NCBI GenBank assembly: GCA_024635625.1
Contig: JAGXIQ010000084.1
Span: 1-64,000, forward strand
DNA from: Loktanella sp.
GTDB lineage: Bacteria > Pseudomonadota > Alphaproteobacteria > Rhodobacterales > Rhodobacteraceae
Length of the DNA stretch: 64,000 nucleotides
Direction: 5' to 3'
The position numbers were made by a program, and so were the translations under genes. This document shows positions 27,887 to 31,722 of this stretch, in pieces (the stretch's first letter is position 1; every line of letters starts with the position of its first letter). Below the pieces are notes generated by a model, which had not been told where the DNA came from, did not search any database, and saw only the letters and a list, made by a program, of their open reading frames with translations.

Positions 27887-27914
27887 CCCCTTGCCACCGC
27901 CGCCCTTGACGCCT

Positions 27915-28255
27915 ATCTGTAGGATGTCCTTTGGGACTATGGACATAAACGCGCTCGTAATACGCGGATCGGACCCGGGGGCGGTACCCGGCGTCTCCAC
28001 CAACACTCTGGTCATTTGCCAGCGATGGGGACGAAATAGGATCGACGAACGTCTAAAGGGGTATTGCTTTGGCCCGGTGAGTTACCACCGTTATCGGTAC
28101 AAAAAAGCTAGTTGCAAATGACAACAAAGCACCGATGGCCCTCGCAGCGTAAGCTGTGCGGAATATCGAACCTTAAGTCCTTAGGTTTTGCGACCTAAGG
28201 CGGGGTCCGCAGGTACCTGGCAACAGAAACCTGCACCTACCCCCCTTATTTTGCC
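27915..28255 (+). ncRNA. ssrA: Two-piece (circularly permuted) transfer-messenger RNA, acceptor piece then coding piece
   Basis: Encoded CCA end CGTCTCC-A-CCA (27992-28002), then 24-nt spacer, then GGGGACG (28027-28033), which pairs as a 7-bp acceptor stem with G3-U70; GGATCGACG core; T stem CCGGG/CCCGG; tag GCA AAT GAC AAC AAA GCA CCG ATG GCC CTC GCA GCG TAA = ANDNKAPMALAA* (28114-28152). Outer ends approximate. Confidence 0.92.
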
Positions 28256-28324: not shown

Positions 28325-29062
28325 ATGCGCTGGGTGCTTCCTCTGATTATTTTGGCTGGACCTTTGGCGGTGCAGGACGCGCAGCCCAAGCTGGGGCCGA
28401 ACGCCGTGCCGATTACGGCTGATAATACCTCTATTCGTAGCCAAGATGCGCTGGATTACTGGGCCTTCGCATCCTTCGTGAAGCCGCAATTCACGACCTC
28501 TGCTTGTTTCATCGCGACAGTGACCGCGGCACTGAACGGGTTGAATGGCCTTGCCCCCCACGCCGAAGACACCGTGATGACGCAGCAAGCCCTGCTAGAA
28601 CTGACGGATAACGCCGATTGGGCAGGTCTGTCCGCCGAAGGCGGCGATGGCGTGACCTTCCAGCAGCTCGTTGATTTCACCAAACTGGCCCTTGCAGCCG
28701 ATGGCATGGCAAAGCGTAGTGTGACCGTGCTGCACCCGACCGAGGCAACCGATGCCGCGATGAAAGACGTCCGGGCGATGTTAGCCGCTAACGAGGCCAG
28801 CGCAGACAACGCTGTGATGTTGTATTTCAATCAGGGTGTTGTCACGGGCGACTGGGATGGACCGCATATCTCTTTGATTGGGGCATATGATGCTGAAAAG
28901 GATAATGTGCTGATCCTCGAGGTCGATCAGGAGTGGTATATCCCCTATTGGACGCCCGTCTCTGTGCTGATGGAGGCTATGGTAAAGCCCACGTCGGCAG
29001 AGCATGGCCCGCTAGAGGGCGAGACCGGCGGCCTTGTGATGATCGACGCCATAGCGGGATGA
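28325..29062 (+). CDS. Phytochelatin synthase-like (peptidase C83 family) protein with signal peptide
   Basis: Candidate Cys/His/Asp triad: FTTSACFIATVTAALNG, DWDGPHISLIGAYDAEKDNVLILEVDQEWYIPYW; N-term MRWVLPLIILAGPLAV resembles a signal peptide; start could be 28307. Confidence 0.7.
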   Translation: MRWVLPLIILAGPLAVQDAQPKLGPNAVPITADNTSIRSQDALDYWAFASFVKPQFTTSACFIATVTAALNGLNGLAPHAEDTVMTQQALLELTDNADWAGLSAEGGDGVTFQQLVDFTKLALAADGMAKRSVTVLHPTEATDAAMKDVRAMLAANEASADNAVMLYFNQGVVTGDWDGPHISLIGAYDAEKDNVLILEVDQEWYIPYWTPVSVLMEAMVKPTSAEHGPLEGETGGLVMIDAIAG

Positions 29063-29815: not shown

Positions 29816-30292
29816 ATGTCGCGAACTATCGACTATGGAAACCTCATGCACCGCGCTATGCGGAGTCTGATCCAGAACGTCTTGACCGACATTCAAAAGA
29901 CCGGACAACTGCCCGGTTCGCATCATTTTTTTATTACGTTCGATACACAGCATCCGGACGTTGAAATCGCCGACTGGCTGTCTGACCGCTATCCGGGAGA
30001 GATGACGATCGTCATACAGCACTGGTTCGATAACCTTGAAGTCACTGACGAAGGGTTTTCGATCACGCTGAATTTTGGCAATGCGCCAGAGCCGCTGTAT
30101 ATCCCCTATGACGCGATCAAGACATTTGTCGACCCATCCGTCGAATTCGGCCTGCGGTTCGAAACCCAGCCCGAATCTGATGATGAAGACGATGACGCCG
30201 AGGCGCCGATGGACGAAATGGTCGAGCCTGATGACGCCGAAGCGCCTCGTAAAGAGGCAGAGGTCGTCAGCCTTGATAAATTCCGCAAATAA
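29816..30292 (+). CDS. sspB: SspB family protein (ClpXP adaptor, alphaproteobacterial type)
   Basis: [70 protein letters not shown]; acidic linker and C-term SLDKFRK. Confidence 0.92.
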
Positions 30293-30330: not shown

Positions 30331-31722
30331 ATGACCGACCAACGCAGCGAATCCGACAGCTTCGGACCCATCGACGTGACAGCAGATCGCTATTGGGGCG
30401 CACAGACCCAGCGCAGCTTGCAGAACTTTCCAATTGGCTGGGAAAAGCAGCCGGTTGCCATCGTGCGCGGTCTTGGGGTGATCAAGCAGGCCTGTGCGAC
30501 AGCCAACATGGCGCGCGGTAAGCTGGATGCTCGCGTCGGTGACGCCATCATCGCCGCTGCGAAAGAGGTTGTGGCCGGAGATCTTGACGATCATTTCCCA
30601 CTTGTCGTCTGGCAAACTGGGTCCGGAACCCAGTCGAATATGAACGCAAACGAGGTAATCTCTAACCGCGCGATCGAAATGCTGGGCGGTACCATTGGGT
30701 CCAAAGATCCGGTCCACCCTAACGATCATGTTAATATGGGGCAGTCGTCCAACGACACGTTCCCAACGGCCATGCATATCGCTGTTGCGCGCACCGCGCA
30801 CGATGTGACGATCCCCGGTCTGGAGCATTTGCGCGCTGCGTTGCAGGCAAAAGTCGAAGAATTTGACGATATCATCAAGATCGGCCGCACCCACACGATG
30901 GATGCCACGCCGCTGACTTTGGGACAGGAATTTTCTGGGTACACTCATCAGGTTGCCATGGGTCTGCGCCGTATCAAGGCGGCCCTGCCCGCGATCTACG
31001 AACTGGCCCAAGGCGGCACCGCCGTCGGCACAGGCCTTAACACGCCTGTAGGCTGGGGAGAGACCGTCGCGAAGGAAATCGCCGATATTACCGGCCTGCC
31101 CTTCGTCACCGCACCGAACAAGTTCGAGGCACTGGCTGCTCATGATGGTCTGGTAGAGATATCTGGTGCATTGAAAGTCATCGCTGGTTCCCTTTACAAG
31201 ATCGCCTGCGATATCCGCATGCTAGCCTCTGGCCCGCGTTGTGGTTTGGGCGAATTGATCCTGCCTGAAAACGAACCCGGTTCGTCCATTATGCCGGGGA
31301 AAGTGAACCCGACGCAGGTCGAAGCGATCACACAGGTCTGCGCCCATGTGATGGGTAATGATGCCGCCGTTGGCTTTGCGGGCTCTCAGGGACATTTTGA
31401 ACTGAATGTGATGAAGCCTATGATGGCCTATAACGTTCTGCAATCATTGCAGCTTTTGGGCGATTCAGCGGTTGCCTTTACCGACAATTGCGTCGTTGGC
31501 ATCAAGGCTGATCGCACCCGCATCGAAAAGCTGATGCGTGAATCGCTGATGCTGGTAACGGCCCTTGCGCCGACTATCGGCTATGACAATGCGACGACAG
31601 TCGCCAAAACGGCCCACAAAAACGGCACCACTCTGAAAGAAGAGGCGATCGCTTTGGGCTTCGTCGATGCGGAAACCTTTGATCGTGTCGTTCGTCCCGA
31701 AGACATGATCGGCCCGAAATGA
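30331..31722 (+). CDS. fumC: Class II fumarate hydratase
   Basis: [28 protein letters not shown] signature; [17 protein letters not shown]. Confidence 0.96.

Follow-up and report, generated by a model that had tools for sequence, protein, structure and literature searches.

The stretch of DNA analysed (the window, 64,000 nucleotides) harbors between positions 27890 and 28237 what is with near certainty an intact, single-copy and circularly permuted alphaproteobacterial ssrA gene, its promoter included. When the window was scanned with all Rfam families, there were two matches above threshold, both at this locus: one to RF01849 alpha_tmRNA (27887-28237, 293.5 bits, E-value 1.4e-84, model positions 1-355 of 355; gathering score 50 bits), and the other to RF04321 tmRNA_permuted (27941-28152, 136.4 bits, E-value 1.3e-26). 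Independently of Rfam, ARAGORN reported a permuted tmRNA with the tag ANDNKAPMALAA. The gene order is permuted as well: the CCA end (28002) precedes the 5' strand of the acceptor stem, GGGGACG, which starts at 28027. The family was also matched above the cut-off in 56 of the 60 related genomes, which together with the E-values of the two matches rules out a chance match; these 56 relatives and the window make up the 57 genomes compared below. A preliminary description, made from the letters alone, had proposed a circularly permuted tmRNA gene of the two-piece type at 27915-28255 and suggested a covariance-model check. The full-length RF01849 match decides this in its favor, in agreement with ARAGORN and the relatives. 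The letters in that range are as described, but it overshoots the 3' end slightly and starts inside the promoter. We found no evidence against the permuted ssrA reading, the only blemish being an A-G opposition at 27943/28072. The locus is a routine member of an already known RNA family that standard tools detect automatically. The coordinates of its features are listed in Table 1.

Table 1. Features of the ssrA locus and the neighboring sspB gene, in window coordinates.
Feature	Position	Strand	Remarks
Promoter-like element CTTGCC-N17-CTATCT for ssrA	27890-27918 (-35, 27890-27895; -10, 27913-27918)	+	Conserved in relatives
Acceptor RNA (tRNA-like 3' half), predicted, about 78 nt, ending in CCA	27925-28002, start approximate	+	RF01849, RF04321, ARAGORN
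5' hairpin of acceptor RNA, GTCC-TTTG-GGAC	27926-27937	+	Rfam structure
Joining helices, acceptor-side strands	27941-45, 27951-56, 27965-71	+	Pair with 28070-74, 28059-67, 28046-51
T-arm CCGGG-GGCGGTA-CCCGG, 7-nt loop	27975-27991	+	Rfam structure
Acceptor stem, 3' strand CGTCTCC	27992-27998	+	Fully paired (7/7) to 28027-28033 across the 57 genomes, always with G3-U70
Intervening segment, 24 nt, small hairpin CTGG..CCAG	28003-28026	+	Removal on maturation probable by family likeness
Coding (mRNA-like) RNA, predicted, about 211 nt	28027-28237	+	End is that of RF01849 match
Acceptor stem, 5' strand GGGGACG	28027-28033	+	Start of coding RNA
Joining helices, coding-side strands	28046-51, 28059-67, 28070-74	+	Pairing counts in the 28 same-family genomes
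Pseudoknot upstream of tag	28075-28100 (stem 1, 28075-77/28088-90; stem 2, 28081-86/28096-100)	+	
Reading frame of the tag, ANDNKAPMALAA, with TAA stop	28114-28152	+	ARAGORN
Hairpin GCNGC-GUAA-GCNGU holding stop codon	28144-28157	+	Paired in 100% of cells; middle pair covaries (UA, AU, CG)
3'-domain hairpin	28179-28200	+	Paired in 95.5% of cells; 6/8 pairs changed on both sides
Terminal hairpin GCAGGT..ACCTGC, inner CTG/CAG	28209-28234	+	100% of cells paired; two two-sided pairs
sspB, neighbor outside the RNA gene	29816-30292	+	Pfam SspB, E-value 2.9e-46

The tRNA-like end of the gene is as had been described: the letters confirm that the CCA ends at 28002, that the 5' strand of the acceptor stem begins at 28027, and that the stem has seven pairs including the G3-U70 wobble (28029/27996), which is the identity element for alanyl-tRNA synthetase. 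The discriminator A is at 27999 and the encoded CCA at 28000-28002; the G3-U70 wobble and the seven-pair stem followed by an encoded CCA are present in all 57 genomes. Two features had been singled out as unusual, namely, the T-loop GGCGGTA and the short spacer. The loop does depart from the canonical TTCRANN form, and if the gene combined an unusual T-loop with a minimal spacer, it might encode a variant tmRNA working unlike its family. However, the loop reads GGCGGTA, GGCAGTA, GGCGGAA or, once, GGCAGAA across all 57 genomes, and GGCGGTA agrees with the RF01849 consensus, so that this loop characterizes the family at large and is no peculiarity of this gene. Likewise, the spacer length of 24 nt was given correctly, but spacers range from 3 to 53 nt among the 57 genomes and nearly all same-family genomes have one of 21-26 nt, hence we rejected the short spacer as a peculiarity too, and consider a deviant mode of action extremely improbable. 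The small spacer hairpin is kept despite sequence change, folding more stably than shuffled sequences (mean z -1.7, 77% of the values below -1), and in 46 of the 57 genomes a T immediately precedes the predicted RNase P site.

Upstream of the gene, a generic scan for E. coli-type promoters gave no match, but the alphaproteobacterial consensus revealed a conserved element. The sigma70 consensus in the alphaproteobacterium Sinorhizobium is CTTGAC-N17-CTATAT (PMC2873474), and a CTTG-N17-CTATNT element recurs across the relatives with near-fixed spacing, the mean best score being 9.35 of 12 versus 7.44 in dinucleotide shuffles. The RF01849 match opens with 39 unpaired positions that include this element; most of them therefore seem to belong to the promoter and not to the mature RNA, and the boundary of the model seemingly takes in promoter DNA. 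A predicted transcription start about 7 nt past the -10 element leads to the predicted length of the acceptor RNA in Table 1. Two-piece tmRNA has been demonstrated experimentally in Sinorhizobium, with an acceptor piece of 82 nt and a coding piece of 214 nt (PMC2873474), and in Orientia, with pieces of about 80 and 240 nt and cleavage in the loop (PMC7335160).

To evaluate the secondary structure we used an alignment of 28 same-family genomes and a model of 57 pairs, consisting of the acceptor stem, T-arm and joining helices of Rfam plus the pseudoknot and three hairpins read from the alignment. The model is paired in 99.1% of the cells, compared with 31-42% in controls with slid partners, a share biased upward since the model was partly read from the same sequences; the covariation counts, with 18 pairs showing two-sided changes, are the stronger evidence. 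The joining helices are paired in 97.6-100% of the cells per helix and show covariation, and the A-G opposition in one of them, which leaves this pair unformed in the window, recurs in one other relative and is a small local imperfection. All cells of the pseudoknot are paired, and its stem 2 has three two-sided pairs, one of which occurs as UA, AU, GC and CG; covariation is clear both in the pseudoknot and in the stop-codon hairpin. The preliminary description had instead joined the two pieces by a pairing of GTAATAC (27957-63) with GTATTGC (28061-67). The letters are indeed present, but this helix is neither conserved nor covarying: it is paired in 146 of 219 cells in one alignment and in 69.4% of those in the 28-genome alignment, with zero two-sided changes; its last pair, C-G, is found in the window only among the 28 genomes; and it competes with supported, conserved helices for the same 3' bases. 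The comparative evidence assigns the joining of the two pieces to the Rfam helices, although the rejected helix may form in the window RNA alone, in competition with the conserved one. Another guess in the 3' domain, TGCGGA/TCCGCA, was paired in 65 of 213 cells and was rejected; the positions used for this count were shifted by one base, and the model does not include the helix.

The tag is encoded in frame (codons GCA...GCG, 28114-28149) with a hydrophobic C terminus, followed by TAA at 28150-28152. Its proposed ending in LAA is confirmed by the letters as well as by ARAGORN, and the same tag ANDNKAPMALAA occurs in several genomes of the same genus and in one other genus. The gene anatomy, its conservation and its covarying structure are read from the sequence, and the processing, charging and tagging steps that follow are extrapolated from the family, the function of two-piece tmRNA, including that in Caulobacter, having been reviewed (PMC3985003). 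The sigma70-type promoter would give rise to one precursor RNA, which RNase P would cut before G28027; 3' processing, presumably by tRNA-processing enzymes, would expose the encoded CCA at 28002, with loss of the 24-nt spacer. The acceptor stem and the three joining helices would then keep the two predicted products, the acceptor RNA (about 78 nt) and the coding RNA (about 211 nt), in one complex. By analogy with the family, this complex would be charged with alanine via G3-U70, bind SmpB, enter stalled ribosomes and add A followed by ANDNKAPMALAA, and the tagged protein would probably be degraded by ClpXP with the help of SspB.

We identified one ssrA copy, that of the window, in the genome (3.58 Mb in 177 contigs), and one copy of smpB on another contig (PF01668, E-value 3.7e-52). 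The locus might still be a decayed copy, either a pseudogene or the remnant of a genomic island, with the functional gene located elsewhere. Such fragments exist, as one relative (G020) has, in addition to its intact gene, a truncated ssrA piece some 7 kb away; however, the window copy is the sole one found in this 92%-complete assembly, and all of its helices, its tag frame and its CCA are intact, so we give hardly any credence to decay and retain the reading of an intact gene. The fragment in G020 (L043 2195-2346, minus strand) is internally deleted, with the T-arm end, CCA and spacer start fused to the 3' end, and sits in the interval from ssrA to sspB. Its make-up suggests what is left of an island that had inserted into ssrA, although no integrase was identified for this fragment. 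As a separate observation, 14 records of plasmids or large secondary replicons contain permuted ssrA-like sequences (from Paracoccus, Sinorhizobium, Methylobacterium and others), e.g., NZ_CP038206.1 1483349-1483660.

Upstream of ssrA lie psd, pssA and a gene for a methyltransferase; downstream of it follow genes for a phytochelatin-synthase-like protein and a DUF1194 protein, then sspB and fumC (30331-31722, as we take this open reading frame to be), and all these neighbors share one strand. The phytochelatin-synthase-like gene (28325-29062; PF05023, E-value 4.5e-16) also lies between ssrA and sspB in some genomes of the same genus. SspB is the adaptor that hands ssrA-tagged proteins to ClpXP, and the product of sspB in the window resembles the solved alphaproteobacterial SspB-like chains 2nys, 2qas and 2qaz. 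In the window, sspB is 1.6 kb downstream of ssrA. Of the 55 relatives that have both genes, 47 carry sspB no more than 10 kb downstream of ssrA and in the same orientation, and in 22 it is within 250 bp, counts that are not of independent cases as the genomes are related; the linkage spans many families of Alphaproteobacteria. A survey in 2007 described conserved genes flanking alphaproteobacterial tmRNA and held their functional association to be uncertain, and SspB is absent from its main text (PMC2245857). The class-wide downstream position of sspB might mean that the tagging RNA and the adaptor recognizing its tag are transcribed together, by which the capacities for tagging and disposal would be coordinated. 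We regard this as rather unlikely, and the conserved linkage as a small, testable lead on coordinated expression.

The locus thus encodes the housekeeping RNA for ribosome rescue in the form already known from Alphaproteobacteria, and no view is changed by it; in practice, it should be annotated as an RNA gene in place of the spurious open reading frames that overlap ssrA. Its closest likeness is to RF01849 alpha_tmRNA, as known from Caulobacter and Sinorhizobium, with which it shares the gene order, the acceptor stem with G3-U70, the T-arm, the joining helices, the pseudoknot, a tag ending in LAA and the predicted piece sizes, differing only by ordinary sequence divergence and by the one joining pair that is A-G in the window. 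With RF04321 tmRNA_permuted, which covers all permuted forms, it shares the permuted tRNA-like domain, but the score of 136.4 bits is less than half of that with the alpha-specific model, a difference to be expected since RF04321 is general and restricted to the tRNA-like domain. The standard one-piece tmRNA, RF00023, has the same function and a tRNA-like domain, whereas the gene order in the window is permuted; RF00023 is unlisted in the scan, where only the best of overlapping matches from the same clan is kept.
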